A DNA stretch of 40,417 nt from Magnetococcales bacterium (GTDB lineage: Bacteria > Pseudomonadota > Magnetococcia > Magnetococcales > JADFWU01), in NCBI GenBank assembly GCA_015234045.1, contig JADFWU010000027.1:1-40417 (forward strand), given 5' to 3'. The notes under the pieces are model-generated. The model saw only the letters and a program-made list of their open reading frames with translations, was not told the origin of the DNA and searched no databases. Positions 24,506-40,344 of this stretch are shown here, piece after piece. Position numbers and translations under genes: made by a program. Within the stretch, counting starts at the first letter, position 1, and each line of letters opens with the position of its first letter.

Positions 24506-25930
24506 ATGTCTGCAACAATCCATACCGACCTGTGTATCATCGGTGCCGGATCTGGTGGACTTTCCGTTGCCGCTGGTGCCATCCAAATGGGTGCTTCTGT
24601 TGTTCTTCTTGAGCGCCACCGCATGGGCGGTGACTGTCTGAACACCGGTTGTATCCCATCCAAAGCCCTAATCGCCGCAGCACACGCAGCGCAATGCATT
24701 CGCACCGCAAACCGTTTTGGCATCCAAACCCAGCAACCAGAGGTTACTATGGACCGGGTTCATGCCCATGTCCATGATATCATTGGTCAGATTGAACCTC
24801 ATGATTCAGTCGCACGGTTTGAAAAATTGGGTTGCCGTGTTATTCAACAAAGTGGCCGGTTTGATAGCCCCAATGAGGTTGTCACCGACACACACCGTAT
24901 CCGCGCCAAACGTTTTGTCATTGCGACCGGCTCTCAGCCAGCCATTCCGCCCATTCCTGGCTTACAAGACCTGCCGTACTTTACCAATGAGACCATTTTC
25001 GACCGAAAAGAACACATTCCCAGATTGTTGGTCATCGGTGGTGGTCCTATTGGTCTTGAACTCGCTCAGGCGTTCCAACGTCTTGGTACACAAGTCACCA
25101 TTCTGGTGCGCTCGACACTCATGCCGAAAGATGATGCCGAATTGACCCAAGTGGTGCAACGGTGCCTGGAATCTGAAGGCATCACCATTCACAGCGGTAT
25201 CCGCTTTATTCGAGCTGAACACGATCCAACCGGCGTAGCGGTTGAGATCGACAAAGGCAGCTCCCGCATTCGCGTAGAAGGTACACACCTGCTCATCGCC
25301 ACAGGCCGTAAACCCAATTGTGATGCGCTCAATCTGGATGCCGCCGGCATCAACCACACCAGCAAAGGCATTCCCGTAGATGCCCGACTGCGTACCAACC
25401 GCAAACATATCTTTGCTATCGGTGATGTGGCTGGGCCTTATCTTTTCACTCATATGGCTGGCTACCAAGCAGGCATTGTAATCCGCAACGCACTGTTTCG
25501 CCTTCCAGCCAAAGTCAATTATGGTGCTGTTCCATGGGTGACGTACACCGACCCGGAACTCGCCCATGTGGGAATGACGGAACAAGATGCCCGACAAGCA
25601 GGCAAGTTTGTCCAGACATTGACCAAACCATTCGAAGAGAACGACCGCGCTCGAGCAGAGCGGGAAACCGATGGATTGATCAAAGTGGTGCTGGGTCGAA
25701 GAGGACGAATTTTAGGCGCTTCAATCGTTGGTCCTCGGGCCGGTGAGTTGATTCAGCCCTGGATTCTGGCCATAAACAATAAAATGAAAATCGGTGCCAT
25801 GGCGACGATTATCACACCTTATCCAACCCTGGGTGAAATCAATAAAGGCGTGGCAGGATCGTTCTACACACCGTCACTATTCAGCAAACGAACCCGTAAG
25901 ATAGTGCGCTGGCTGATGCGTTTCAGTTGA
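24506..25930 (+). CDS. MerA-like FAD-dependent pyridine nucleotide-disulfide oxidoreductase
   Basis: 474 residues. The FAD Rossmann motif is I-I-G-A-G-S-G-G-L-S, followed by the redox-active disulfide G-G-D-C-L-N-T-G-C-I-P-S-K, the NAD(P) motif V-I-G-G-G-P-I-G-L-E, and the second FAD motif H-I-F-A-I-G-D-V-A-G. The C-terminal interface motif reads P-Y-P-T-L-G-E, where dihydrolipoamide dehydrogenases have H-P-T. The catalytic His is thus replaced by Tyr, as in mercuric-reductase-like relatives, and lipoamide is an unlikely substrate. There is no heavy-metal-binding N-terminal domain, so mercury reduction is not implied. GAGAGGAT precedes the ATG. It converges on the MBOAT gene with only 5 bp between stop codons. 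Confidence 0.85.
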   Translation: MSATIHTDLCIIGAGSGGLSVAAGAIQMGASVVLLERHRMGGDCLNTGCIPSKALIAAAHAAQCIRTANRFGIQTQQPEVTMDRVHAHVHDIIGQIEPHDSVARFEKLGCRVIQQSGRFDSPNEVVTDTHRIRAKRFVIATGSQPAIPPIPGLQDLPYFTNETIFDRKEHIPRLLVIGGGPIGLELAQAFQRLGTQVTILVRSTLMPKDDAELTQVVQRCLESEGITIHSGIRFIRAEHDPTGVAVEIDKGSSRIRVEGTHLLIATGRKPNCDALNLDAAGINHTSKGIPVDARLRTNRKHIFAIGDVAGPYLFTHMAGYQAGIVIRNALFRLPAKVNYGAVPWVTYTDPELAHVGMTEQDARQAGKFVQTLTKPFEENDRARAERETDGLIKVVLGRRGRILGASIVGPRAGELIQPWILAINNKMKIGAMATIITPYPTLGEINKGVAGSFYTPSLFSKRTRKIVRWLMRFS

Positions 25931-25935
25931 TTTTT

Positions 25936-27138
25936 CTACATCACTGAAGGCAGATAGATACCAGTCAACAGCTTGATCAACAGGTAAAATCCATCCAACA
26001 CGGTTCCGCTCTTATCCGTGGCTGCAAAGGCATAGCTTCCGGTAACAAACACCATGGTAAACGCAATACCCAACCCCTTGGCCAGCGGATGTTTACTGGG
26101 ACGGTATTTATACCGTTTTCGCATGAACCTCTGGAAATGACCATAAAAGATGATACCAACAGCATGATATAGCCCCCAAAAGAGCCAGTTCAGCGTTGCA
26201 CCGTGCCATAGACCAATAGTGGCCATGGTTGCCAATACCGCATGAGTGGGATTGCGGGTCAGTCCAATCATCGGCATATAGATATAGGCACGACACCAAC
26301 CGGACAGAGAGATATGCCAGCGCTGCCAAAATACCTGAATGTTGGATGCCAACACTGGAAAATTGAAGTTCTCCATAATTCGAAAACCAAACAGCCGTGA
26401 TGAACCGATGGCAATATCCGAATATGCTGAGAAATCAAGATAGGCGTAGATAAAAAACAGAACCACATACATCCAGGTACGCATCCATGACGCCAACTCT
26501 GGGTCGTTAACGGCTTGGGCAACCAACGGCGCACTCATCAAGGGAATGATTATCCCCTCGGCGATGACAAACTTTTTGATTAAACCATGGGCAATGCGTG
26601 TCAGACCATCGGCAATATCGGCAGAATTGATAGTCTTACTGCGGTTCTTAATGAATGCATCAAACCGCTCAATAGGACCTGCCGGATAGATCGGGAAAAA
26701 GAAGATATATAGAAAAAATATGGAAAAATCGTGCTGTTTTATGTTTCCACGCCGAGTTTCCAAGGCATAATGAATCAGCTTGAAGGTAAAATAGGAGATG
26801 CCGAATGGCAGAACCAGTGACATCACCGCCTCATTGTCACTGATAAACTGACCCAGCAATGCAGGACGCAGCTTGAAAAAAGCCAACTGAGCAATCAATC
26901 CCCAGATCAACCAGGAGAGAATGCGCCGTTTGGATTCATCTCCCCCGTTCAGATGCCGCGAACAATAATAAAAAGCACTGGTCCACACAATAAGCGAGAC
27001 AACCGCCATCCAATCGGCTGGTAACAACAACCCCACCGAAACGATACCAAGAAACGACACCCTGAAACGGTCAGGAATGAGCCAGAAAACAACGGCTGCA
27101 CCTAATAAAACCAACCAGTAGGAAAGATCGGTGATCAT
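25936..27138 (-). CDS. MBOAT-family O-acyltransferase (DltB/AlgI-like)
   Basis: 400 residues with about ten or more membrane segments. The MBOAT core is clear: F-P-I-Y-P-A-G-P-I-E-R-F, D-F-S-A-Y-S-D-I-A-I-G, F-W-Q-R-W-H-I-S-L-S, and the active-site His312 in L-W-H-G-A-T-L-N-W-L-F-W-G. DltB passes D-alanine from its carrier protein through a membrane funnel to the outer face; AlgI and PatA do the same with acetyl groups. As last gene of the operon it sits 47 bp after the DltX-like microprotein gene and downstream of carrier-protein and ligase genes, which points to an ACP-linked donor rather than acetyl-CoA. The ATG at 27138 has a weak GGGG 5 nt upstream; an in-frame GTG lies at 27144. Confidence 0.9.
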   Translation of the reverse strand: MITDLSYWLVLLGAAVVFWLIPDRFRVSFLGIVSVGLLLPADWMAVVSLIVWTSAFYYCSRHLNGGDESKRRILSWLIWGLIAQLAFFKLRPALLGQFISDNEAVMSLVLPFGISYFTFKLIHYALETRRGNIKQHDFSIFFLYIFFFPIYPAGPIERFDAFIKNRSKTINSADIADGLTRIAHGLIKKFVIAEGIIIPLMSAPLVAQAVNDPELASWMRTWMYVVLFFIYAYLDFSAYSDIAIGSSRLFGFRIMENFNFPVLASNIQVFWQRWHISLSGWCRAYIYMPMIGLTRNPTHAVLATMATIGLWHGATLNWLFWGLYHAVGIIFYGHFQRFMRKRYKYRPSKHPLAKGLGIAFTMVFVTGSYAFAATDKSGTVLDGFYLLIKLLTGIYLPSVM

Positions 27139-27147
27139 TGACACCCC

Positions 27148-27171
27148 ATGCCGGCATTATTGTATTGCCGG
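27148..27171 (-). other. Hairpin between the DltX-like and MBOAT genes
   Basis: CCGGCA (27151-27156) pairs with TGCCGG (27166-27171). An alternative perfect 10-bp palindrome, ATGCCGGCAT, covers 27148-27157. The structure ends 9 nt before the MBOAT ATG, so it could tune translation of the last gene or act as an mRNA processing point. Confidence 0.4.
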
Positions 27172-27185
27172 ACAATGCTCAGAAT

Positions 27186-27329
27186 CTAGAAGCCTGCATA
27201 ACGAAAGACCTGCGCCCCACTTTTTGCGGCATACAGTTCCATAAAAGCCCAAACCAACCCCATATACAAACCCAAAAACTGAAGCGTTCTGCCCACCCAA
27301 ACCAATCCATTTTCAACACGGTTTTTCAT
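27186..27329 (-). CDS. DltX-like 47-residue membrane microprotein
   Basis: A short open frame of 47 codons ending in TAG. It has a basic N-terminus (K2, R4, R14), one membrane helix (about 16-34) and the exact C-terminal motif F42-R-Y44-A-G-F47, that is F-x-Y-x-x-F at the very end. In Dlt systems DltX is a similarly small membrane protein next to DltB and DltD; its C-terminal F-x-Y-x-x-F tyrosine carries the acyl group between the MBOAT and DltD. Its ATG overlaps the DltD-like stop by 4 bp (ATGA), and AAAGG lies 6 nt upstream, both strong signs of a real gene. It is short enough to be missed by automatic calling. Homology to DltX is inferred from length, position, topology and motif, not from an alignment. 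Confidence 0.85.
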   Translation of the reverse strand: MKNRVENGLVWVGRTLQFLGLYMGLVWAFMELYAAKSGAQVFRYAGF

Positions 27330-28450
27330 GGCGTACCTTTGCTGTGCAGAATGGTGTTCAACGAAGGAACCAGGCGTGCGACCAAAGCCTGTTCATACTT
27401 GGCTCTACTCTCTGGCCCATAAAGATGGGTCGTATCCCTATAATCCGCTTCTACCAGCCCTGCTTCCTGATCCAAGTGCCACAACGGTAACGCCATCTCT
27501 TCAGCAAAGTTGGCTACAACCGTACGATAATAGCCATAACGCTCAGGAAAACGCGCCACCACATCAGGATGAATGGGCGGTTCCCAAAGAACAACCTGCA
27601 TACCACTGTGAGATCTCACGTTATCCACAAAGCGACGAAGCACTTCAATATTGGCCTGATGCGCTGTTTCAATACGCTTTAAACGATCTTCCACAATAGG
27701 CCAGTAAAAACGCTTCCAACGGTCTGCCGTGGCATAGCTTTGGTCAAGTTTTTGATTGTGCATCCGATAGCGCGGCGCTCCCTTGATGGGATTTAACAAT
27801 ACAGCGCGTGCCCGCGCACTGAAAAAATCCATATGATCGAACAAATAGTTGCCACTGGGCAGATCGCCATTTACCCCTGCCAGTTTCTGTTCCCTGTAAA
27901 AAGCCGCAGAATCAAGCGCCAGCCTGGGTTTTCTCAATAGGTCGCCATCCGTTTGCAAAGACTTGGTCAAAGAGCCAATTCCGGCAGAAACCAGCACAAC
28001 ACCCTGAATCCCCTTTGGCAGATAATCACTCACCGCCAACATATCCCACAGGCTGAGATCAGCCGCCGCCAGAAGATGAAAACGCGCCGGCGCAGTTAAC
28101 TTATCTGATAGCGTTTTCCCCAATCCTTCCGGCGACTGAATCGCCATCCGTGCCGAAGAGGCACCCAGCAAAAAAACACCCAGTTCAGGATGTGCATTGC
28201 GCTTTAACTGGTAGCTTTTAAACGTGAGCCATGCGTAATAATCCGCTGATTGACGCATCATCGTATTGGCTGGAGACGCTGCAATCCGCTCTGGTGTCCA
28301 GTACCACGACAACACGAGAAAATGTACAACAGCGGCAATAAAAGCCAACAATACAACCCACAGATAAGGCCTGACAAGCCCGTGGGCAAAGGCACTCCAG
28401 TAATGATATAAACCGATGGATCCACCCTGTTCAGCCTTGGAATCAGCCAT
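27326..28450 (-). CDS. DltD/AlgX-like membrane-anchored SGNH hydrolase-type protein
   Basis: 374 residues: a short cytoplasmic N-terminus, one membrane helix (about 29-50) and an extracytoplasmic SGNH-like domain. The nucleophile block is L-L-G-A-S-S-A-R (Ser98/Ser99), and the C-terminal catalytic pair is D339-T-T-H342 in the D-x-x-H arrangement, followed by L-Y-G-P as in DltD. DltD takes the D-alanyl group from DltX and places it on teichoic acid; AlgX and related proteins acetylate alginate. Here the acceptor is unknown, but a periplasmic or surface polymer is expected. The gene overlaps the ligase gene by 8 bp and the DltX-like gene by 4 bp. Confidence 0.82.
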   Translation of the reverse strand: MADSKAEQGGSIGLYHYWSAFAHGLVRPYLWVVLLAFIAAVVHFLVLSWYWTPERIAASPANTMMRQSADYYAWLTFKSYQLKRNAHPELGVFLLGASSARMAIQSPEGLGKTLSDKLTAPARFHLLAAADLSLWDMLAVSDYLPKGIQGVVLVSAGIGSLTKSLQTDGDLLRKPRLALDSAAFYREQKLAGVNGDLPSGNYLFDHMDFFSARARAVLLNPIKGAPRYRMHNQKLDQSYATADRWKRFYWPIVEDRLKRIETAHQANIEVLRRFVDNVRSHSGMQVVLWEPPIHPDVVARFPERYGYYRTVVANFAEEMALPLWHLDQEAGLVEADYRDTTHLYGPESRAKYEQALVARLVPSLNTILHSKGTP

Positions 28451-29963
28451 TGGTCAACTCCACTTTCAGGGCATCATAGTCTATTTTACCATGTCGGGTT
28501 ACAGGCAGAGCCGAACGGCGTTCCCAGCGCTGAGGCATCATATGTGGCGGCAGGTTTTTTCGAGCAAATTTTTTCAGATCTTTCAGCACCGCATCACCTC
28601 CATCGGACACCACGACAGCAACAACAGCTGTTCCAAGAAGCGCATGCGGTTGACCAAAAACCGCTGACTGACTGATCAGACCCGATGCATTGAGCATTTT
28701 TTCCACCTCAACAGGTGACACCCGAACACCCATCACTTTGAGCTGGCTATCACGCCTACCATGAAAATGGAAAAAACCCGCTGAATCCCGCCAACCATAA
28801 TCACCCGTGCGACACCCCATTACCGGCTGATCGCTGTGCTTGGCATGGATTGGTTGCAGCAACGGCTCCAACGGATGTTCACCGCCCCTCCAGTAACCCG
28901 CAGCAACGCCTGCACCAATATGTACTAACTCACCAATCGTATCATCCGGCACTTGCCGACCCGCATCATCCACCACTATCAAATCCACACCAACAATAGC
29001 GCGACCAATACTCTCCGGTCGATCTCGCACCATTTCCGGACATAAACAAGCGGATCGGTAGGTCTCGGTCAAACCGTAATTGAGATAGAACGCCCCACGC
29101 GGCATCTGCTCAATCAATTGCGCTAAAACAACTGACGGCAATGAACCACCAGAACTTGTAATGACGCTCAAAGAAGATTTATCAATACCCGAAAACGGAG
29201 ACATACCGGTCATCAAATGGGTAATCAAGGCAGGCACCGCTGCCAAAACCGTTGGACGCTGTTGCTCAATGGTATTACATACTGAATGCAGATCATTGCG
29301 CTCAGGAATAATGAGCGTGGCACCACTGGCAACAGACACCTGCCACTGAACAAAACCAAAATCAAATGACCATGGCACCGGACAAAGCAGACGATCTGCC
29401 TCGGCAATACCATGATACTCAGCCACACGATGCGCACCATCCAAAAGCGTTGAATGACGCTGCACTACGCCTTTTGGCTGTCCCGTGGAACCTGAGGTAA
29501 ATACAATGGAGGCAAAGGATTCAGAATCAATAGAAAAACGTTCAGAAACCGGCGAAGCATCATCACTCGGTAAAATCTCCGCCGCAGACAAACCCATCAC
29601 TTTCGCAGGCAGTTCAACAGGCAGTTTAATGGAATGGATTACAGCGGTTGCCGCCGTAGTCTCCAGCACATGGCTTAACTGTGGCGCTTTACTTTGGGTA
29701 TTGATCAGGACAATGACACCACCCGCAGCCCATACCGATGTTATGGCAATGGCCATTTCCAACGAGGGCTCCATCCAGAGCACAACCCGATCTCCTTGAC
29801 CGACACCCGCCTCCGCCAGCTGTTGTCTGCCATGATTAGTGGCAACAACCCACGCACCAACAGTGAGCGTCCGCGCAGCGTGAATCACCGCCAAAGCATC
29901 AGCATTGGTGGTCATGCGGTGTTGTAACACCTCCAGAAGATTCCTCGCCCCTGAAGCGGTCAT
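28443..29963 (-). CDS. AMP-forming amino acid/acyl ligase (ANL superfamily, DltA-like role)
   Basis: 506 residues with the full set of adenylation motifs. The P-loop is F-T-S-G-S-T-G-Q-P-K-G (155-165), with Y-G-L-T-E-T, R-T-G-D-Y-G, the hinge region G-R-R-D-S-Q-L-K and the catalytic Lys493 in H-G-K-I-D-Y. It would activate a carboxylate with ATP and load it on the phosphopantetheine of the carrier protein encoded at the head of the operon. In overall context it resembles both DltA and the AMP ligases found in exosortase-A loci together with a PLP decarboxylase. The specificity pocket cannot be read reliably, so D-alanine is not assumed. It starts 5 bp after the sulfotransferase gene and overlaps the DltD-like gene by 8 bp. 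Confidence 0.87.
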   Translation of the reverse strand: MTASGARNLLEVLQHRMTTNADALAVIHAARTLTVGAWVVATNHGRQQLAEAGVGQGDRVVLWMEPSLEMAIAITSVWAAGGVIVLINTQSKAPQLSHVLETTAATAVIHSIKLPVELPAKVMGLSAAEILPSDDASPVSERFSIDSESFASIVFTSGSTGQPKGVVQRHSTLLDGAHRVAEYHGIAEADRLLCPVPWSFDFGFVQWQVSVASGATLIIPERNDLHSVCNTIEQQRPTVLAAVPALITHLMTGMSPFSGIDKSSLSVITSSGGSLPSVVLAQLIEQMPRGAFYLNYGLTETYRSACLCPEMVRDRPESIGRAIVGVDLIVVDDAGRQVPDDTIGELVHIGAGVAAGYWRGGEHPLEPLLQPIHAKHSDQPVMGCRTGDYGWRDSAGFFHFHGRRDSQLKVMGVRVSPVEVEKMLNASGLISQSAVFGQPHALLGTAVVAVVVSDGGDAVLKDLKKFARKNLPPHMMPQRWERRSALPVTRHGKIDYDALKVELTNG

Positions 29964-29968
29964 TGGAT

Positions 29969-30898
29969 TTATTGCCTCGCCTTCATTCCAGCGACCAACA
30001 ACTCAAGCTCAAGCCGTCTTTTGGCCATGGCATCGTCTTCTTCTTGCAATACGACCTTCTCGTATCCCAACGACTCAAGAAGTGTATTCGTTTTTTTTGC
30101 CAACCGTCGAATCACTGTTGGCGGCATGGCACGATAGCGTCCAACACTCGAACGACTGACATGATTAAGCTGATAGGTTTTCCAATCACCTAGTCCGGCA
30201 CCTGTCTTTGGCTTGAAAGCCTCTTCCAACAATGCGGTGATATCGGTTTCAATGCCTAGAAAATCAAAGACACCACTCAGTGCCGCAGCAGGATCATTGG
30301 TCAGATCTTCATACCGTACCAAAGTAACGCGATCAGGATGACGTTCTTTTAGATCAAGAATCTGTTTATTGCAGTCCATCCAAGCATCCAGACACGCATC
30401 CAAGGGCCGACTGTCACGAATAAAATAAGGGTGCAATTCCGCTGGGATCCGCGCCATCTTAGCGATCAATTCTTCAATGGAGTGGACCGCATCCAGACCA
30501 TGACGCACAATAGCCACATAGCGCACATGATCACCACACATCGACTCAAAACCAGGTAGTAAAAAGGTATCAAAAGCGGTTTTCTCAGCCCAAAGCGGCT
30601 TGTCCTGTTGGTCCGCCAACTCCCGAAGGAAACCAAACACCAACTCTCGAAGACGTTGATGAATTATCTGCTCTTTTATACCGGAATAACTTAATCCCGG
30701 CACCACACCGGTAGCCAATCCGTTGCCAAAGGATTCTGACTTCAAGAAACGCGCACACGCGCCAAACAGATATGTCTCCGCAGGACAGGCAATTTTTGGA
30801 TGGGCATCCAACAGACGTCTCAGCAGCGTCGATCCACTGCGTGGCGCACCTAAAACAACAATACCTTCATAAGGGAGGGTATCCGGCAGGGCATTCAT
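29969..30898 (-). CDS. PAPS-dependent sulfotransferase family protein
   Basis: 309 residues, apparently cytosolic. The 5'-phosphosulfate loop is G-A-P-R-S-G-S-T-L-L near residues 17-26, and the 3'-phosphate motif is I-V-R-H-G-L-D-A-V-H-S. A later R-Y-E-D-L-T motif is standard for the family. Such enzymes move sulfate from PAPS to hydroxyls or amines of sugars, lipids or small molecules. The gene is 7 bp after the decarboxylase and 5 bp before the ligase, so it is co-transcribed with the Dlt-like genes. Either the transferred group or the acceptor glycan may be sulfated. A few members of this fold have lost activity; nothing here suggests that. Confidence 0.82.
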   Translation of the reverse strand: MNALPDTLPYEGIVVLGAPRSGSTLLRRLLDAHPKIACPAETYLFGACARFLKSESFGNGLATGVVPGLSYSGIKEQIIHQRLRELVFGFLRELADQQDKPLWAEKTAFDTFLLPGFESMCGDHVRYVAIVRHGLDAVHSIEELIAKMARIPAELHPYFIRDSRPLDACLDAWMDCNKQILDLKERHPDRVTLVRYEDLTNDPAAALSGVFDFLGIETDITALLEEAFKPKTGAGLGDWKTYQLNHVSRSSVGRYRAMPPTVIRRLAKKTNTLLESLGYEKVVLQEEDDAMAKRRLELELLVAGMKARQ

Positions 30899-30905
30899 TG
30901 AGCAT

Positions 30906-32162
30906 TCATCCGCAAGAAGAAGAGTGGGATATATCCGTCACAACCGGTTTACCTTCCGCCATACCGGTTACCAGGATTTCCCGCGCTGCGGGATGACCGA
31001 TGAAGGCTTCAGGACTGGCAGTCAGACCATAAGCACCAGAGGACGAAATACCCAGCACATCACCGGTAGAGAGCGCTGGCAAAGTAATCCGCTGGGAAAG
31101 AATATCAATGGTGGTACACAATGGACCGGTCAGCATCATGTCGGTATCCTCTGCTGGCTTGATCGACCCACGCACCTTGAAAATCGGATAGTTACGTCGA
31201 ATCACCATGCCCAACATGCCAAATGCCGCGATATGATTATTAAATCCGCCATCACAAAGCGCGATATCCGTGCCACGGCTCTGTTTTTTACGTATCACTG
31301 AGGTGAGAAAATAACCACTCGGACCGATCAGATAACGCCCCATCTCCAACGCCCGTACAGCATTTTTAAGACGTGGATGCGTTGCAACGGGCTGGATGGC
31401 TTGTCGTATCCGTCCTGCCAGATCATCCAAATCCAATGGCACATCATTATCGTGGTATGGAATACCAAAACCTGAACCAAAGATAAGCTTTTCAGGATGA
31501 AGGTCATGACGTTCCGAAAATCGGATGAACAACTCACCCATAATCGCAATATTTTCTGCAATCCCTTCCGCATTCAATGAGTTGGTACCAGAATAGATAT
31601 GAAACCCTTTTAACCGCAGATTGGAAAACACATCAAAACGGTCAAGCACCGCATCAACCTGCTCTTCATCTATGCCAAACTGACTGGGTTTTCCAGCCAT
31701 ACGCACGCCAAACTGTTTGGGCACAGTCAGTGGATTAATGCGCAACAAAACCGTCATCACCTGCCCGGCTTCGCCTGCGAGTTGATCCAATTCAGCCAAC
31801 TCATCCGCACTTTCACACACCACTTCGCCACAACGATTTGTGATGGCAGAAACCAACTCAAAGCGCCGTTTAGCAGGACCAGAAAAAGTCAACCGATCTC
31901 CAGACCACCCCTGCTCAACCGCCCGTTCCAACTCACCGGAAGAGGAAACGTCCAGCGTATCCACCCTATCCAACAGATGACGAATGAGGGTCCGATTGGG
32001 ATTACTTTTGACTGCATAGCTGACTTCAAACAGATCACCTAAAGCGGTTTTAAGTGCTTTAATTCTATCGTTCAGGGTATCTTGAAAATAGACATAGCAG
32101 GGCGTGCCAAACTGCTTGGCAACCGTATTCAGAACGCCATGAAGGTCTTTATCATCCATCAC
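30906..32162 (-). CDS. Fold-type III PLP-dependent decarboxylase (LysA/BtrK-like)
   Basis: 418 residues with the alanine-racemase-type barrel and a C-terminal beta domain. The PLP Lys is K52 in Y-A-V-K-S-N-P. Further cofactor motifs are G-F-H-I-Y-S-G-T, the glycine-rich G-S-G-F-G-I-P-Y, and E-M-G-R. The substrate motif reads G-P-L-C349-T-T-I-D, where diaminopimelate decarboxylases have C-E-S-x-D, so meso-diaminopimelate is not the expected substrate. BtrK of butirosin biosynthesis and the exosortase-A-associated decarboxylases are relatives; BtrK works on an amino acid held by a carrier protein. A carrier-protein gene lies 6 bp upstream. A decarboxylase acting on the ACP-bound amino acid is my preferred reading; a racemase role would be the alternative. 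Confidence 0.8.
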   Translation of the reverse strand: MMDDKDLHGVLNTVAKQFGTPCYVYFQDTLNDRIKALKTALGDLFEVSYAVKSNPNRTLIRHLLDRVDTLDVSSSGELERAVEQGWSGDRLTFSGPAKRRFELVSAITNRCGEVVCESADELAELDQLAGEAGQVMTVLLRINPLTVPKQFGVRMAGKPSQFGIDEEQVDAVLDRFDVFSNLRLKGFHIYSGTNSLNAEGIAENIAIMGELFIRFSERHDLHPEKLIFGSGFGIPYHDNDVPLDLDDLAGRIRQAIQPVATHPRLKNAVRALEMGRYLIGPSGYFLTSVIRKKQSRGTDIALCDGGFNNHIAAFGMLGMVIRRNYPIFKVRGSIKPAEDTDMMLTGPLCTTIDILSQRITLPALSTGDVLGISSSGAYGLTASPEAFIGHPAAREILVTGMAEGKPVVTDISHSSSCG

Positions 32163-32168
32163 AATCCC

Positions 32169-32411
32169 TCACTCTGTGGATTTACCAATAAATCCTTCGA
32201 TACGCTCTACGGAATCCAGATTATCAAGGGTGACATCATCCGGCGAGATACGGAACCCAAAGTTTTCCTCCAGAAATGTCATCAAGGTAACCAGAGAAAA
32301 TGAATCAATCATGCCGCTGCTGAACAGCAAGGTGTCAGGCTGCACCTCGTCCAAATCCATACCCAGTTCGTCATCCAAAAATGTCAGAATACGGTTGCGA
32401 ATATCGGACAT
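32169..32411 (-). CDS. Acyl/aminoacyl carrier protein (DltC-like)
   Basis: 80 residues, acidic, four-helix carrier-protein fold. The phosphopantetheine serine is Ser37 in G-M-I-D-S-F-S-L-V, in the canonical position at the start of helix 2. It is the first gene of the seven-gene operon, 6 bp before the decarboxylase. It should be the tether to which the AMP ligase loads its substrate, as DltC does for D-alanine and BtrI for glutamate. An AGAGGAA sequence lies about 10 nt before the ATG. A role in fatty acid synthesis is unlikely, given the neighbours and the absence of fab genes. Confidence 0.9.
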   Translation of the reverse strand: MSDIRNRILTFLDDELGMDLDEVQPDTLLFSSGMIDSFSLVTLMTFLEENFGFRISPDDVTLDNLDSVERIEGFIGKSTE

Positions 32412-32790: not shown

Positions 32791-33507
32791 CTACATGGCG
32801 TTGCGATATTCTCGATAATAGCGCAACACTTTCTGTACGTAGCGACGTGTTTCTCGATAGGGAGGCACGCGGTTACCGTAACGACGTACGGCATTTTCAC
32901 CGGCATTGTAAGCCGCCAGGCTCAGGGTGAGATTATTTTTGAACATATGCAACAAGCGCCGCAAATGACGGGCACCTGCGTGAATGTTATTTTCAGGATC
33001 CCAACGATCACGCACACCATACTTGGCCGCAGTCTCCGGCATCAGCTGCATCAAACCAACCGCCCCTTTTGGTGACAAAGCGTTGGGATTAAAGCTGGAC
33101 TCAGCTTGGATCACAGCATGAACCAAAGCGGGCTCAACCTTATAGCGATTAGCCAACCGTTTGATAGTGGTGCTGTAGTTCTTGGGAACCGGTTTGAGAA
33201 CAGGTGGCACTTTCGCCAGCCCACCCTCTAACACCCGGTTGAAATGAACACGGCGCGGCTTCAGCACTGGCGGACGCTTGGTATTGCCTGTACTTAAAAC
33301 CTGTTGCTCTTCTGTTTCAAGCAAATAGAAAAAACCCGCCTTGATTGATGAGACGCTTGAAAGCACGATCTCATCCTTAACCGGGATATCCGCAATGGCG
33401 GTAACGGACGCACTAAGAGACACAACCACCGTCAAAATCGACCAGAAGGCGTATCGCTTAACTCCGTAAAACTGTTTTGAGGATCTCATTAGGTGATGTA
33501 TCATCAT
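32791..33507 (-). CDS. Periplasmic lytic transglycosylase (SLT domain)
   Basis: 238 residues: a signal peptide ending near T-A-I-A before D-I-P, a low-complexity linker with the motif P-P-V-L-K-P twice 22 residues apart, then a family 1 lytic transglycosylase domain (about 105-238). The catalytic Glu lies in Q-A-E-S-S-F-N-P; G-A-V-G-L-M-Q-L-M-P-E-T-A and A-Y-N-A-G-E-N-A-V are the other hallmarks. It cleaves peptidoglycan strands with 1,6-anhydro ends. Several start codons (33507, 33504, 33489) are possible and none has a good ribosome site. The gene is divergent from a small secreted-protein gene, 146 bp away. Confidence 0.9.
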   Translation of the reverse strand: MMIHHLMRSSKQFYGVKRYAFWSILTVVVSLSASVTAIADIPVKDEIVLSSVSSIKAGFFYLLETEEQQVLSTGNTKRPPVLKPRRVHFNRVLEGGLAKVPPVLKPVPKNYSTTIKRLANRYKVEPALVHAVIQAESSFNPNALSPKGAVGLMQLMPETAAKYGVRDRWDPENNIHAGARHLRRLLHMFKNNLTLSLAAYNAGENAVRRYGNRVPPYRETRRYVQKVLRYYREYRNAM

Positions 33508-34099: not shown

Positions 34100-35743
34100 T
34101 CAGATCGGTTCGTCACCACTCTTCCGATAAAACAATGGCGGATGAAAACTCAATTTTTCATGATATTCAATTTCCAACTCAAATGTTTCCAGTAGCGTGT
34201 GGACAACTGTATCATGAGAGTTAGGCGCATGGGTTAGCGACAACGAACGCTGATAATCAATGTCCGAAGAGTCACCTGCCCAAACGATGATCGGTACATG
34301 GGTTTGAGCTTCAGGCGCAAACATATAGGGCATCCCATGCAGATATAACCCGTTCTCACCGAGCGATTCTCCATGATCTCCGATATAGAACATGGATGTT
34401 TCAAAGTTCTTCTCATTGGCCTTTAACAGGCCAATCACTTCTGATAAAAAATAGTCCGTGTAGAGTATGGCGTTATCGTAGGCATTCACGATTTCGCTTT
34501 TGCTGCACTCGGATAACTCATTTGTTTGACAGGCCGGTTTGAACTGTTCGAACGCTTTTGGATACCGTTTATAGTAAGCTGGCCCATGGTTACCCATCTG
34601 ATGCAAAACAATCAGTATGTCTTCCTGATGCGCATCAATAAATTCCTGAAGACCTGAAAGCATTCCAATATCCCGGCACTCAACATCACAAACAGGATTC
34701 ACATCAGGCGACTTGTAGTCTACATACTCTATTCGGTTCGCCACCCCCTTGGAACTGGAGTTATTATCTCTCCAAAGGACAGTAACACCTGATTTTTTCA
34801 ATATATCCAGTACGTTTTCAGTGTACTTGGCAGAAGAGCGATCAAAATCTTTTCGGCCGGAAAAAGAGAACATGCACGGTACTGAGATTGCTGTAGCCGT
34901 ACCACATGAAGAGACCTGACTGTAATTGAGCACCTGTTTGATCTTTGATAATCGTGGATTGGTTTCTCGTGAATATCCATTAAGTGAAAAATGATCGGCT
35001 CGAACCGCTTCTCCAACCACGACAATGACCAGTTCATGAGCGACATCATCCTCTTGACGTGTGACATCACCTGCAATCATTTTAAACTTGGGTTGATCAC
35101 CCTTGATCGCTTTATGAACATATCTTCCAATGGAATAGATCGGATAGACTGGATTAATCTCATATCGTAGATTTTTATGTTCGCGAACCGCACTGGTGTA
35201 TTGAGCACTATTGGAACCAAAACAGAGCACCATAAACAACAATGAAATCAAAGCAGTCTGGAGAACAAAACGCTTATCATGAAGCCATTTTTCCCGTTTG
35301 ATTGGCGCATACCAGACAAGAACCGCTGGCAGAACCCCCATCAAGCCCACATGAAACACGATCCCGAAGTTAATCAGATCCAGAGCTTCTGATGCATTGG
35401 TTTCCAATAAGTTGTGGATCATATCTCTGTCTATCACCACACCAAACTGATTGGAAAAATAGCCGGTGATCGACGCAAAAATCAGCAACACCCCGCCAAC
35501 AACGCGGAAAGGCAGGATGAGGTTAAACATACTGATAAGCAGCACTAAAAAAGCACAAAAAAACAGGAACATGGAGATCAGAAAAACAGCGTTCCCAGAC
35601 CAGGGATAGATTTCCATGACATGCTCAAAGAATTTTATATTGCCACTACACGCCAAAAACAGCGCAATCAAAACCATAAGTTTTGACTTTCCCCACTTTT
35701 CCGGAAGGAAAGAACTATAATTATTAACTTTTATCATTCTCAT
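34100..35743 (-). CDS. Phosphoethanolamine transferase (EptA-like sulfatase-fold enzyme)
   Basis: About 547 residues. Five N-terminal membrane helices (to about residue 180) precede a periplasmic alkaline-phosphatase/sulfatase-fold domain. The nucleophilic Thr lies in S-C-G-T-A-T-A-I-S-V-P-C-M-F, and the zinc-site D-H-G-E-S-L-G-E is intact, as is H-Q-M-G-N-H-G-P. EptA transfers phosphoethanolamine from phosphatidylethanolamine to lipid A; relatives modify heptose or flagellar and other surface proteins. Paired cysteines suit the usual periplasmic disulfides. Start codons at 35755 (TTG), 35743 and 35737 (ATG) are possible; none has a clear ribosome site and 35743 is a compromise. No PmrAB-like regulators adjoin it. 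Confidence 0.88.
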   Translation of the reverse strand: MRMIKVNNYSSFLPEKWGKSKLMVLIALFLACSGNIKFFEHVMEIYPWSGNAVFLISMFLFFCAFLVLLISMFNLILPFRVVGGVLLIFASITGYFSNQFGVVIDRDMIHNLLETNASEALDLINFGIVFHVGLMGVLPAVLVWYAPIKREKWLHDKRFVLQTALISLLFMVLCFGSNSAQYTSAVREHKNLRYEINPVYPIYSIGRYVHKAIKGDQPKFKMIAGDVTRQEDDVAHELVIVVVGEAVRADHFSLNGYSRETNPRLSKIKQVLNYSQVSSCGTATAISVPCMFSFSGRKDFDRSSAKYTENVLDILKKSGVTVLWRDNNSSSKGVANRIEYVDYKSPDVNPVCDVECRDIGMLSGLQEFIDAHQEDILIVLHQMGNHGPAYYKRYPKAFEQFKPACQTNELSECSKSEIVNAYDNAILYTDYFLSEVIGLLKANEKNFETSMFYIGDHGESLGENGLYLHGMPYMFAPEAQTHVPIIVWAGDSSDIDYQRSLSLTHAPNSHDTVVHTLLETFELEIEYHEKLSFHPPLFYRKSGDEPI

Positions 35744-35782
35744 CGCGGTAATCAATCACATGTAAAGACGCATTGTATAGTC

Positions 35783-36025: not shown

Positions 36026-38176
36026 CTAAAATCCACTTTCTCTGATCAATAGCGTCATCACCCGCTCCCACAGCCAAACAATACCACTTCGGCTTTCCGC
36101 CTCAACCCGCACCACACCACTGCGCTGCTGACCTGGTGCTGTCGCATCACCAATCTCAAAACCAACCCGATAGATCCCGCGCACCGGAACCAGGACACCG
36201 CCGGATTCCCGTGGTGGATGCACCGGCACAGGGCCATTATAAAGGGATGCCAACACAGGAAACTCCAAGCTCCGTGCATTGTGATCGGCAATGGATACAA
36301 CCCGACACGGGCGCACGCTCAGCGCAGGATCATCAGCATAAAATAATCCGTTCGCATCCAAATTCAACCGATGCAAATCCGCCTCTTCCACATAGGCTTC
36401 AACCACCCCTTTCCGCCGGTTGACGATCTCTACCAAAGCGACTGTCTCATCAATCCAGCGCCCTGCGTGCAATCCGTGGCTAAACTCACTGACCGTACCG
36501 CTGATGGGTGCCATCAACACCAATCGATTCTTCTGACGCTGTAATGCCAGCAACTGGGCCTGTTCGGAAGCCAACGCCCGTTGCAACACCGGCAATAACG
36601 AGCGCTCTTCAATACTGGCAGTGGTACGAGACAGGCGCAATTTGGCCAGATCCACTCGTGTTTGAGCCTGGGCCAGCATATTTTCCAAGCCGGGATTTTC
36701 CAATGTGATCAGGGGATCACCCACCTGAACCACAGCGCCCGCCTCTACATGGATGGTATTGATTCGTGCAGGACTTTCTGCATAGACCATGGCGGTCTCT
36801 CTAGCCAACATGACCGCTGGCAACTCCATGGCATAATGCCAAGGCACCACCATCAATGCGATCACAATCAACCACACACCACCGTGAACAACCAGTCGCC
36901 TGTTCCAACTAATCATTGATCGAACCTGCCACCACTGCGCCATTTCACGCACCACAGGACGAAAGATAAACCACCAGATCTCAACGATAAAAAGGAAGAT
37001 ACCCAACACTTTGAAGAAAAATTCATAAACCAACCAAGCAATTGAAATAAATATTAATAACCGATACATCCAAGTACCAAGCGCAAACAGAATCAATCCT
37101 CGCTGTAATTTCGGCGGAAATCGCTCCGGTGGCGGCACGGCTAAACCCAATAACCATGAACGAATGAACCAACGCGCTAATTCAAAACCACGACTGTGTA
37201 GATTTTCCACGCCCAATGCATCGGAAACCAGATAGTAGCCATCAAACCGCATGAATGGATTGAGATTAATACCCAGCGTCATAATCCATGTCACGGAAGA
37301 GAGCAGAAACGCCGCACTGTGTATCGGCCCTTCCGGTGTCAGATGCCACACCAAAAGCGCAATGACGGCCAGCCCCAATTCTGCAACAACACCCGCGCTG
37401 GCAATGGCCATGCGTTGATGTTTGGATGCCAATTTCCAGCTATCACTGGTCTCGGTATACATCACTGGCCAAAGCACCAGCAAAGCCACACCCATGGTGG
37501 ACACTTTGCAGCCGAATCGATAGGCGGTGAACGCATGACCAAACTCATGCACCATTTTAGAGACCGTTAACGCGATCACCCACCACACCAAGCCATCCCA
37601 GGAAAAGAAGTGCATAAAGGTGTTGCTATACGCTTCCCACTGACGTGATGTTAAGAAAGCGCCTAACATCCCCAACATCACAAACACCCACAAGGCTTCA
37701 CGGGTATATAACACCCGAACAGTGGGCATCATGGCACGCAGAACAGATTCGGGACGGAATAGTGGAATACGCAAAAACAGATAGTTCTGTAGCAACCAGG
37801 TCCAAAATGGCGGCTTCATCTTATCCGCAATAAACTTCATATACGCTGGACCATCAGCATCCATACGCAACAGCAACGCATTGACCTGAAGAAACTGTAT
37901 CAGCCCTTTCAGATCCTGTTCGCTCACCATCAAACCGGTTTCAGCACGGGTTTGCGCCAACACAATCGCGCCATCCGTAGGCATCCAACGCGCCAGCAAC
38001 TCAAACGCAACGCGTGAAATCCTAAAAAAACGATTTCTTATGGGATCGTGAATGGTCCAGGTGGGTGCGCCATCCGGCTGCACCGGCCCCGGAAACAGGC
38101 CTAGATCCTCACGCAATGGTGGTAAAATCACCGGTTGTTCCGGCGCACCGCCTGCCATCGCCGCAATTGCCGTCAC
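36026..38176 (-). CDS. M50-type membrane peptidase domain fused to HlyD/biotinyl-lipoyl adaptor
   Basis: 716 residues. Residues 30-120 form a PqqD-like or winged-helix module. A polytopic membrane core carries the site-2-protease motif H-E-F-G-H near residue 208 and the matching N-P-F-M-R-F-D-G-Y-Y near residue 312. After the last membrane helix (about 440-460) comes a periplasmic HlyD-type arm with lipoyl half-motifs around a helical hairpin (about 475-620). Such chimeras occur beside other HlyD genes in secretion or efflux-like clusters whose protease substrate is unknown. The GTG start at 38176 lies 1 bp after the upstream stop; an ATG at 38158 is the alternative. It is the last gene of a three-gene operon. 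Confidence 0.85.
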   Translation of the reverse strand: MTAIAAMAGGAPEQPVILPPLREDLGLFPGPVQPDGAPTWTIHDPIRNRFFRISRVAFELLARWMPTDGAIVLAQTRAETGLMVSEQDLKGLIQFLQVNALLLRMDADGPAYMKFIADKMKPPFWTWLLQNYLFLRIPLFRPESVLRAMMPTVRVLYTREALWVFVMLGMLGAFLTSRQWEAYSNTFMHFFSWDGLVWWVIALTVSKMVHEFGHAFTAYRFGCKVSTMGVALLVLWPVMYTETSDSWKLASKHQRMAIASAGVVAELGLAVIALLVWHLTPEGPIHSAAFLLSSVTWIMTLGINLNPFMRFDGYYLVSDALGVENLHSRGFELARWFIRSWLLGLAVPPPERFPPKLQRGLILFALGTWMYRLLIFISIAWLVYEFFFKVLGIFLFIVEIWWFIFRPVVREMAQWWQVRSMISWNRRLVVHGGVWLIVIALMVVPWHYAMELPAVMLARETAMVYAESPARINTIHVEAGAVVQVGDPLITLENPGLENMLAQAQTRVDLAKLRLSRTTASIEERSLLPVLQRALASEQAQLLALQRQKNRLVLMAPISGTVSEFSHGLHAGRWIDETVALVEIVNRRKGVVEAYVEEADLHRLNLDANGLFYADDPALSVRPCRVVSIADHNARSLEFPVLASLYNGPVPVHPPRESGGVLVPVRGIYRVGFEIGDATAPGQQRSGVVRVEAESRSGIVWLWERVMTLLIRESGF

Positions 38177-38177
38177 T

Positions 38178-39539
38178 CTACCACCCCAACCAACGCCGTA
38201 CCGCTGTTAACGGGCGACGGAACAGATAAAACGCCAACGGAACATCTCCGCCGTGAACCCGTGCCACACCGCGTAATCCGATCCGTGGTTGTTTCTCCAA
38301 ATCCGCAGTCACCAGATCCGCCACCGCCCGATAGGCCAACCCCCCTTCCGGTGTCATAGCGGCCTGATAACTGGCATGCCGTAACGTGGCATCCAACGGA
38401 TGCAGTGGTGAAACATCCAGAAACAGCCGCACCGGCGCATCTTCTTCCAGAGCGACAGCATCCTCAACCGGTATATCCATACTTATTTCAACCCGTCCAG
38501 CATCGGCAAGCAACATAATACGCTCACCCGTTTTGACTGGCCGCCCTTCCCAATCATTCACATCCCGAAAGACCGCGATACCCGCCTGCTCTGCTTTAAC
38601 GGTCACTCGGTCCAGCTGAATACCCACATGATCCCGTTCCAACGCTTTCAAACGCGCCTGCGACTCCAGCAACGCCAATTCAGCTTTACTCTCCATCTGC
38701 CTAAACGCACCTTGTTGGGCCCGTCTCAACTGTGCTTCTGCCACAGCTAACGCCTGTTCGGCCATATGGAATCGGCTCTCAAAGTCCTCTGCCACATAGG
38801 TGAACAATGGCGTTCCTGTTTCAACCAAGGCATTTGGTTGAACCAAAAAACGATCAATCACACCGTCCATGGGTGCCGCCACAACCTGAGGCTCACGTGC
38901 CACGACCTCTGCTGGTGCCAATACCGATTGTGGCACCGGCACCACCATGGCCAACAAGGCTATGATCAAAAATGTCCAACGCAGCCAACTGTTACGCACT
39001 ATGGACAACGAAAACCGACCACCAGCTACTGGACCCAAAGCCCGCCACGCATGACCGTAGGCGGCCATTATCCGTTCCATCAATGCCATTTCAGCATCGA
39101 TAAACGGCTCACGCCGCAAACAAAACAGCGCCGCCACCGGTCCAGCACGATCGGTCAGTGAAAGCGGCATCCAAAGTCCTTGTTCCGGCAACCACTCCGC
39201 CCACTCCTTGGACCATGGCGCGTCCAAATCCGCTGCACACACCGTATGCAGACTGTTTAGCTTCTCTTCATCGAAACCCCGCCGCACCAAACCATGTACC
39301 CATTGAGTCATCGGTGCAGTGGAATCAGGAACCGGAATATCCGAAGCCGCTGTTATCTTCACATGTGCCCAATCCGGCCCTTCCAAAAACAGTGCCTGAG
39401 AATAGGGCCGTAACAAGCGGGTACGATTCACCGACATATAGCGAAATGCCGCTGTACCATCGGCCTCGCGCGCTTCCTGCTCTAATTGAAGCAGCGTCAT
39501 CAATGGATCAGCGTTTTGTGGTGTCTCTACCTGGCTCAT
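38178..39539 (-). CDS. GAF-HlyD membrane fusion protein
   Basis: 453 residues. A cytoplasmic GAF-like domain (about 20-180) is followed by one membrane helix (about 190-212) and a periplasmic HlyD-type adaptor. The adaptor has two lipoyl halves flanking a coiled-coil hairpin (about 265-320) and a beta-barrel domain. The layout suggests cytoplasmic sensing coupled to a periplasmic adaptor. Its ATG overlaps the stop of the upstream adaptor by 4 bp (ATGA), and its TAG is 1 bp before the M50-HlyD start. Membrane fusion proteins normally partner with an ABC or RND pump, but no pump lies in the window. Confidence 0.82.
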   Translation of the reverse strand: MSQVETPQNADPLMTLLQLEQEAREADGTAAFRYMSVNRTRLLRPYSQALFLEGPDWAHVKITAASDIPVPDSTAPMTQWVHGLVRRGFDEEKLNSLHTVCAADLDAPWSKEWAEWLPEQGLWMPLSLTDRAGPVAALFCLRREPFIDAEMALMERIMAAYGHAWRALGPVAGGRFSLSIVRNSWLRWTFLIIALLAMVVPVPQSVLAPAEVVAREPQVVAAPMDGVIDRFLVQPNALVETGTPLFTYVAEDFESRFHMAEQALAVAEAQLRRAQQGAFRQMESKAELALLESQARLKALERDHVGIQLDRVTVKAEQAGIAVFRDVNDWEGRPVKTGERIMLLADAGRVEISMDIPVEDAVALEEDAPVRLFLDVSPLHPLDATLRHASYQAAMTPEGGLAYRAVADLVTADLEKQPRIGLRGVARVHGGDVPLAFYLFRRPLTAVRRWLGW

Positions 39540-40306
39540 GGTGCGACCTGACCCGACTGCGTATTGAAATGATCAAAATGAACCGATCCACTCATGCCCG
39601 GCACCAATGTTTTATCAATTTCAGTTAATTTTCCGGTGATCTGCATCGACTGGCTGACCGGATCGACCTGAGCACCCAGACGAATGATTTTGCCCTTCAG
39701 AATGAGACCAGTCTCATCCACACGCATGGAAAATCCAGCACCTACCCTCAACCACGCCAACCAATGGGACGGCACCACCACCGATACCTCTGGATTATCC
39801 CGATCCAACACTTCCAACACAGGCTGTCCCAACTGGATATACTCATAGCGCTGCGCCATCCGAGCCACAACCCGACCGTCAAACGGTGCTTTAATCACAC
39901 AACGATTCACTGGAATTTCAGCTTGAGCCACCTCCGCCAACCGTTGAGCCACCTCCGCCTCGGACAGCGACACCTCCAATCGACCCACCGAATTCAGGCG
40001 TGCCAGATCCTGATTGTTGGTCAACGTCTTTTCCGCACCCATCAACGCCGCCCGCGCCGACTGCAACCGCGCTTCATACAGACCACAATCAAAAGTGACC
40101 AAATGCCGTCCCTTACGAAACCATTCACCCTCTTTCAACGGTAATCGACTGATCACCGCCGCCACCTGACTGGACAGAACAGCCCTACGCGATGGCTCCA
40201 ACAAACCACGTACCTCATCCTTCGCCATCTGCTCTGCCGCATTTGACAAAGATGGAGAGATAAATAGTGATAAAAACAGAATATTAACGATATATCTCAA
40301 TTTCAT
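39536..40306 (-). CDS. Secreted HlyD/RND-type periplasmic adaptor
   Basis: 256 residues with a cleavable signal peptide (K-L-R-Y-I-V-N-I-L-F-L-S-L-F, cut near S-N-A-A). The mature part is a short membrane-fusion protein with the lipoyl halves around a brief hairpin (S-A-R-A-A-L-M-G-A-E-K-T-L) and a beta-barrel. It is shorter than classical AcrA-type adaptors. The ATG at 40306 is chosen because it begins the signal peptide; the longer frame to 40336 would need a TTG start. It is the first gene of the operon with the GAF-HlyD and M50-HlyD proteins. Three different adaptors in one unit without a pump is unusual. Confidence 0.85.
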   Translation of the reverse strand: MKLRYIVNILFLSLFISPSLSNAAEQMAKDEVRGLLEPSRRAVLSSQVAAVISRLPLKEGEWFRKGRHLVTFDCGLYEARLQSARAALMGAEKTLTNNQDLARLNSVGRLEVSLSEAEVAQRLAEVAQAEIPVNRCVIKAPFDGRVVARMAQRYEYIQLGQPVLEVLDRDNPEVSVVVPSHWLAWLRVGAGFSMRVDETGLILKGKIIRLGAQVDPVSQSMQITGKLTEIDKTLVPGMSGSVHFDHFNTQSGQVAP

Positions 40307-40344
40307 TTTTGTACATTTTCCCTTTGTTCCAGGCAAATACAGTC

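Follow-up and report, generated by a model that had tools for sequence, protein, structure and literature searches.

What would a bacterium with an outer membrane do with the machinery that attaches D-alanine to teichoic acids, and why should that machinery be joined to an amino acid decarboxylase and a sulfotransferase? The question is raised by a compact operon in a 40,417-nt stretch of DNA from a Magnetococcales bacterium (contig JADFWU010000027.1 of assembly GCA_015234045.1; hereafter the window). Its seven open reading frames (ORFs), which occupy 25936–32411 of the minus strand, encode an acyl carrier protein (ACP), a fold-III decarboxylase dependent on pyridoxal phosphate (PLP), a sulfotransferase, an AMP-forming ligase, an SGNH protein, a DltX-like microprotein and a membrane-bound O-acyltransferase (MBOAT). 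Judging from sequence comparisons, we consider it probable that the operon specifies a carrier-protein-driven aminoacylation system, in which aspartate would be converted to β-alanyl-ACP and the β-alanyl group exported by DltB-, DltX- and DltD-like proteins to an acceptor in the envelope. The gene set and its conservation, together with the DltX motif and the SGNH triad, were observed directly and are given first.

When 84,980 species genomes were scanned with a profile built from three decarboxylase sequences, 79 loci were recovered, and 13 of these also encode a carrier protein, a ligase, an MBOAT and an SGNH relative. The scan was not exhaustive, and the total of 14 loci, the window included, is a lower bound. 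The further loci come from a Phycisphaerales member (L071), Thioploca (L072), a Pseudomonadota metagenome-assembled genome (L075), a Verrucomicrobiales member (L080), Alsobacter (L085), a gammaproteobacterium (L091), a Rhodobacterales member (L097), Pseudohalioglobus (L098), a Granulosicoccaceae member (L108), Roseivivax (L114), Octadecabacter (L118), a Chromatiales member (L122) and Pseudorhodobacter (L140). Besides the window, the set thus spans Planctomycetota, Verrucomicrobiota, and alpha- and gammaproteobacteria. An earlier, sequence-only reading of the operon as a Dlt-like acylation system had named in advance a lack of co-occurrence in relatives as grounds for giving it up, and 13 further genomes were found to carry the set. 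At least four gene orders were observed (carrier protein–decarboxylase–sulfotransferase–ligase–SGNH–microprotein–MBOAT; SGNH–microprotein–MBOAT–carrier protein–decarboxylase–(sulfotransferase)–ligase; SGNH–microprotein–MBOAT–ligase–carrier protein–decarboxylase; and divergent halves). As gene order and flanks differ, recent shared descent of the neighbourhood is not the reason for the co-occurrence.

In all 14 MBOAT loci a small ORF ending in FxYxx[F/Y] lies between the SGNH and MBOAT genes. When the 8886 ORFs of 40–120 aa from all loci searched and the window were screened for a C-terminal F.Y..[FY], precisely these 14 were recovered; a DltX-like ORF was absent from every searched locus without an MBOAT. 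The window carrier protein is 42–56% identical to those of the 13 related loci and scored below the cut-offs of the DltC-type and other ACP models, and in most loci the ACP gene adjoins that of the decarboxylase. Searches with the single SGNH sequence returned nothing from 60 near relatives, 398 genomes of the phylum and 72,556 plasmids, and a 14-row SGNH profile gave only three weak partial matches, none convincing, in the 398 phylum genomes (397 besides the host). MBOAT searches of the plasmids and the phylum found generic MBOATs only (about 28–43% identity), and the three plasmid MBOAT loci that were inspected lacked carrier protein, ligase and decarboxylase. The system is therefore rare and patchy, which suggests horizontal transfer.

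The membrane half of the operon resembles the Dlt apparatus. The SGNH protein has no match to any Pfam or NCBIfam model. Its AlphaFold2 model, built from 14 homologues with a mean pLDDT of 86.8, had DltD chains as all 12 of its best Foldseek matches (E 4.6e-06 to 3.2e-04). A VIA-align comparison with DltD gave Z 14.0 over 274 residues at 4.8 Å, a score tied with other, smaller SGNH hydrolases, so that the putative assignment to DltD is supported by its Foldseek rank, the full-length coverage and the gene context. In the alignment of 14 sequences only five columns are invariant, and three of them hold the catalytic Ser98, Asp339 and His342. The microprotein has one hydrophobic segment by eye, and its terminus FRYAGF fits FxYxxF, the C-terminal "acyl shuttle" whose tyrosine carries the acyl group in DltX (PMC12148441); neither it nor the SGNH protein was matched by DltX or DltD sequence models. 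For the MBOAT, DltB proteins are the only solved relatives and TIGR04091 (DltB) the only NCBIfam match (180 bits, below the cut-off of 375). His314 is invariant, and the protein has neither the C-terminal helices nor the C-terminal motif seen in PatA-type MBOATs: no FxYxxF was found on the C-terminus of any of 13 homologues or, by inspection, of the window MBOAT itself. The view that every Dlt role has a counterpart here was thus borne out, with a carrier protein, a ligase, an SGNH protein of DltD fold, a microprotein ending in FRYAGF and a DltB-like MBOAT.

The supply half differs in what it would load. The ligase scored 349 bits against its nearest NCBIfam model, TIGR03098 (cut-off 592), and 159 bits against the DltA model TIGR01734 (cut-off 560), and its closest stand-alone solved enzyme is VinN, which activates the β-carboxyl of 3-methylaspartate so that the residue can be passed to a stand-alone ACP (PMC11284099). 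VinN grips the amino group of its substrate with D230 and the α-carboxylate with S299 and R331, next to the bulky F231 (PMC11253843; PMC7756342); the corresponding residues of the window ligase are Asp201, Ser271, Arg303 and Phe202. In the 71 ligases of these loci the Asp and the Arg are invariant throughout, Ser or Thr occupies position 299 and position 231 is mostly aromatic, and the combination was absent from the six other AMP-forming ligases of the host genome. Such a pocket points to an amino acid with a free α-carboxylate, activated at its side-chain carboxyl, and aspartate is the likely first candidate. The decarboxylase has BtrK, an L-glutamyl-[ACP] decarboxylase, as its best solved relative (218 bits), followed by 6knh, deposited as a probable diaminopimelate decarboxylase (143 bits), and others at 122 bits or less; with the window enzyme as query, PDB entries annotated as diaminopimelate decarboxylases all trailed BtrK by at least 75 bits. 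These scores agree with the previous description of the enzyme as BtrK-like rather than of the plain diaminopimelate type. Among NCBIfam models it comes nearest to that of the exosortase A-associated decarboxylase, TIGR03099 (364 bits, below the cut-off of 478), and Lys52, His188, Cys349 and Tyr378 are kept in the aligned relatives.

Taken together, these results are consistent with a scheme of four steps. The ligase, to judge by its pocket, would adenylate the β-carboxyl of aspartate and load it on the holo-carrier protein. The decarboxylase would then strip the α-carboxyl from the tethered residue, as its BtrK homology and the VinO and BolN pathways suggest; the product would be β-alanyl-ACP, an isomer of D-alanyl-DltC with equal mass and charge. 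Precedents for the conversion of aspartate or methylaspartate to a β-aminoacyl-ACP exist in VinN/VinO (PMC11284099) and BolO/BolC/BolN (PMC7756342). In the third step, to which strict co-occurrence and the motifs point, the DltB-like MBOAT may hand the β-alanyl group to the tyrosine of the C-terminal FxYxxF of the microprotein. Finally, the SGNH protein of DltD fold would accept the group on Ser98 and donate it to a hydroxyl group on a glycan or glycolipid of the envelope, which would thereby gain a positive charge. The last two steps are carried over by analogy from Dlt. It had been proposed before that an amino acid is loaded on the ACP and decarboxylated there. This holds if loading is through the side-chain carboxyl, as expected of a VinN-type pocket, but not through the α-carboxyl, because an α-carboxyl thioester leaves no α-carboxylate to be removed. 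No support was found for racemisation, which had been offered as an alternative.

Since BtrK itself acts on γ-glutamyl-ACP, the same machinery could instead load glutamate through its γ-carboxyl, as in butirosin biosynthesis, and export a 4-aminobutyryl (GABA) group. The ligase pocket is, however, of the VinN type, which takes aspartate or 3-methylaspartate. GABA thioesters also cyclise readily, and butirosin biosynthesis shields the amine with a second glutamyl residue; the operon has no enzyme that would add this protective group, and we regard export of GABA as quite unlikely. A free diaminopimelate or ornithine decarboxylase or racemase, paired with a ligase for the free product of that enzyme or for an ordinary amino acid, appears very improbable. 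The fold-III family does include such enzymes, and the lysA model gave 218 bits, but BtrK outscored the diaminopimelate decarboxylases of the PDB, and the host genome holds another lysA-like gene (26% identical to the operon decarboxylase). The ligase code, moreover, suits a dicarboxylic amino acid, VinN refuses the decarboxylated amine (PMC11284099), and fed β-alanine fails to rescue bolN (PMC7756342). A plain lysA identity was rejected, BtrK being far closer among solved structures.

The sulfotransferase had been taken as a built-in part of the system, a view that did not survive the wider sample: only seven of the 14 MBOAT loci have one, and it is an optional extra rather than part of the core. 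It was also found beside the decarboxylase in two loci without an MBOAT (L119, L123). Its PRSG loop, Glu41, Arg132 and Ser140, cofactor-binding positions included, are invariant in nine homologues. By sequence as well as by fold, its neighbours are polyketide synthase (PKS) sulfotransferases, which act on ACP-bound chains, and tyrosylprotein sulfotransferases. Where present, it probably acts in the cytoplasm, with the carrier-bound group or the acceptor as its substrate, and its association with the supply half weakly favours a carrier-bound substrate.

These features raise the possibility that the β-aminoacyl-ACP is altered before export, by N-sulfation, by hydroxyl sulfation after a start from hydroxyaspartate, by N-acylation or by desaturation, so that the surface would carry a capped group and no free amine. 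This would be a variant of the β-alanylation scheme and compatible with its export steps; we hold it to be a real, if somewhat doubtful, possibility. The sulfotransferase gene is a direct neighbour of the decarboxylase gene in the ACP/decarboxylase/ligase part of the cluster, its presence in loci without an MBOAT indicates that it goes with carrier-level chemistry, and the PKS enzymes are its nearest solved relatives by sequence; other loci contain acyl-CoA-dehydrogenase-like and GNAT genes. On the other hand, its fold is at least as close to that of tyrosylprotein sulfotransferases, and half of the loci do without it. An acyl-CoA-dehydrogenase-like gene was seen near the ligase or MBOAT gene in six loci (L075, L077, L085, L086, L118, L140), which fits bolagladin-type chemistry. 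There the trio and the acyl-CoA-dehydrogenase-like BolQ give dehydro-β-alanine (PMC7756342), and the gene of the six loci may likewise yield a dehydro-β-alanyl group.

Mantel tests favoured the β-alanylation scheme in that most gene pairs shared their divergence. Genome distances were strongly correlated inside the halves (decarboxylase/ligase, rho 0.73; SGNH/MBOAT, rho 0.68) but less so across them, where decarboxylase, ligase and carrier protein gave rho 0.11 to 0.35 vs. SGNH and MBOAT. Several results weigh against the scheme. The ligase and MBOAT distances correlated poorly (rho 0.11, p 0.13), and L072 and L080 carry the other ligase subtype, that of exopolysaccharide loci; the two halves are therefore exchangeable. 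The pocket is VinN-like and not identical, with Tyr at position 231 in most relatives and Tyr or Phe at K330. Both NCBIfam families below whose cut-offs the ligase and decarboxylase fall are uncharacterised (hypoth_equivalog), the sulfotransferase has no assigned step in the scheme, and no polymer gene is consistently linked, the flanks varying by locus when a fixed acceptor gene was sought in the neighbourhoods. The cytoplasmic half occurs without an MBOAT in many exopolysaccharide-type loci. In two polysaccharide-type loci of alphaproteobacteria (L033, L034), which lack an MBOAT, the trio of ligase, carrier protein and decarboxylase has a GMC oxidoreductase in its vicinity, and ligase and decarboxylase lie beside a GSCFA-family gene without MBOAT or SGNH in L117, L123 and L138, where the GSCFA-family protein is a possible alternative transferase. 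The pattern reads as a module for β-aminoacyl-ACP supply that is coupled to varied transfer machines, the Dlt type being one.

The lack of a consistently adjacent polymer gene bears also on the acceptor, which could be a small molecule or a lipid; alternatively, the cluster could make a natural product for export and modify no polymer at all. The best-characterised examples of the ligase/ACP/decarboxylase trio belong to natural-product pathways. Yet the MBOAT/DltX/SGNH assemblies of known function acylate envelope polymers (PMC12148441), the conserved core has no PKS, nonribosomal peptide synthetase or condensing enzyme, and the window neighbours are envelope genes, namely a lipid A phosphoethanolamine transferase and a lytic transglycosylase. 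We thus consider an acceptor or product of this kind unlikely. As for the 14 loci at large, we would venture, with slightly less than even confidence, that bacteria of several outer-membrane phyla perform Dlt-type β-alanylation of an envelope polymer from aspartate, and that in half of the known cases the cationic group is converted to a sulfated form by the sulfotransferase.

The coordinates of the operon were verified (Table 1). Its genes are separated by 6 nt (carrier protein/decarboxylase), 7 nt (decarboxylase/sulfotransferase) and 5 nt (sulfotransferase/ligase), or overlap by 8 nt (ligase/SGNH) and 4 nt (SGNH/microprotein). The MBOAT gene follows the microprotein gene after 41 nt if read from a GTG (27144) and after 47 nt if read from the ATG (27138); the relatives start at the equivalent position, which favours the ATG and the 47-nt gap and agrees with the seven-gene layout described earlier. 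The Gram-negative type of envelope was likewise confirmed: lpxC is present in the host genome and, together with the EptA-type gene upstream of the operon, it marks an LPS (lipopolysaccharide)-bearing organism with an outer membrane. The EptA-type gene is a second modifier of envelope charge on the strand of the operon, and the lytic transglycosylase gene lies between the two. Further upstream, the HlyD-type genes form an unusual export-like cluster, and on the other side the ends of the MBOAT gene and of a convergent oxidoreductase gene are 5 nt apart.

Table 1. Genes of the operon and its flanks in the window
Feature	Coordinates	Strand	Evidence or remark
Three adjoining HlyD-type proteins	36026..40336	-	One fused to a peptidase M50 domain (716 aa)
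EptA-type phosphoethanolamine-lipid A transferase	34100..35755	-	NF028537, 627 bits (cut-off 500)
Lytic transglycosylase	32791..33507	-	SLT domain
Acyl carrier protein, 80 aa	32169..32411	-	Phosphopantetheine site in GMIDSFSL; PF00550, 1.4e-08
Fold-III PLP decarboxylase, BtrK/TIGR03099-like, 418 aa	30906..32162	-	PF02784/PF00278
Sulfotransferase, 309 aa	29969..30898	-	PF13469, 1.3e-21
AMP-forming ligase, VinN-type β-carboxyl (aspartate) pocket by residues, 506 aa	28443..29963	-	PF00501
SGNH transferase (predicted), membrane-anchored, DltD fold, 374 aa	27326..28450	-	AlphaFold2 model and Foldseek
DltX-like membrane microprotein, C-terminus FRYAGF, 47 aa	27186..27329	-	Acyl-shuttle hexapeptide motif
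DltB-like MBOAT, about 400 aa	25936..27144	-	PF03062; likely start ATG 27138
MerA/lipoamide-dehydrogenase-like FAD oxidoreductase	24506..25930	+	

No description of this gene set, of DltX in Gram-negatives or of a β-alanyl exopolysaccharide was found in the open-licence literature. The claim that no such system had been described therefore stands for the set as a whole, but not for the ligase/carrier/decarboxylase trio, which was already known from exosortase A, vicenistatin and bolagladin systems; its coupling to Dlt-type export appears to be new. A 2025 study of MBOAT/SGNH acylation stated that non-Dlt pathways have no carrier protein and no DltX-like microprotein (PMC12148441); contrary to that statement, 14 loci in outer-membrane bacteria have both. 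If β-alanylation is correct, this would be the first carrier-protein- and DltX-driven MBOAT pathway beyond D-alanylation and the first β-alanylated surface polymer with known genes, and two isomeric routes, from D-alanine and from β-alanine, would lead to a surface amine ester through one membrane machine. The operon also offers a way into the uncharacterised ligase and decarboxylase families of the exosortase loci, and makes the acyl cargo of the microprotein tyrosine a directly testable question.

Dlt-like loci have been reported in Gram-negatives such as Bordetella; we know of none with a decarboxylase. With the Dlt pathway of teichoic acid D-alanylation (DltA, DltB, DltC, DltD, DltX) the operon shares a separate carrier protein, an AMP-forming ligase, a short MBOAT, an adjacent gene for a membrane microprotein with C-terminal FxYxxF, and an SGNH protein of DltD fold. 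It differs in its lipid A envelope, its additional carrier-level decarboxylase and, often, sulfotransferase, its aspartate-type ligase pocket, and the distance of its membrane proteins from the DltB, DltD and DltX sequence models. PatA/PatB-type acetylation of peptidoglycan and alginate has in common with it the MBOAT, the SGNH protein and the logic of an acyl-Tyr shuttle, but PatA draws on acetyl-CoA, bears the motif on its own C-terminus and works without a carrier protein or microprotein. The exosortase A-associated ligase and decarboxylase of exopolysaccharide loci (TIGR03098/TIGR03099) belong to the same gene families and are the nearest NCBIfam models, whereas the operon scores below both cut-offs and the trio-bearing L033 and L034 lack the MBOAT/DltX/SGNH set. 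An exosortase A module was rejected on these scores and because the sole exosortase match of the genome lies on another contig, an exosortase-like protein (C22:52322-53083, L037) with 112 bits against the XrtA cut-off of 208. Closest to the supply half are VinN/VinL/VinO of vicenistatin and BolO/BolC/BolN(/BolQ) of the bolagladins, with a stand-alone ACP, a β-carboxyl ligase for (methyl)aspartate with D230/S299/R331, a PLP decarboxylase for the ACP-bound residue and, in some loci, an acyl-CoA-dehydrogenase-like partner. There the trio primes a polyketide or peptide, whereas here the place of such a synthase is taken by a machine for export and transfer.

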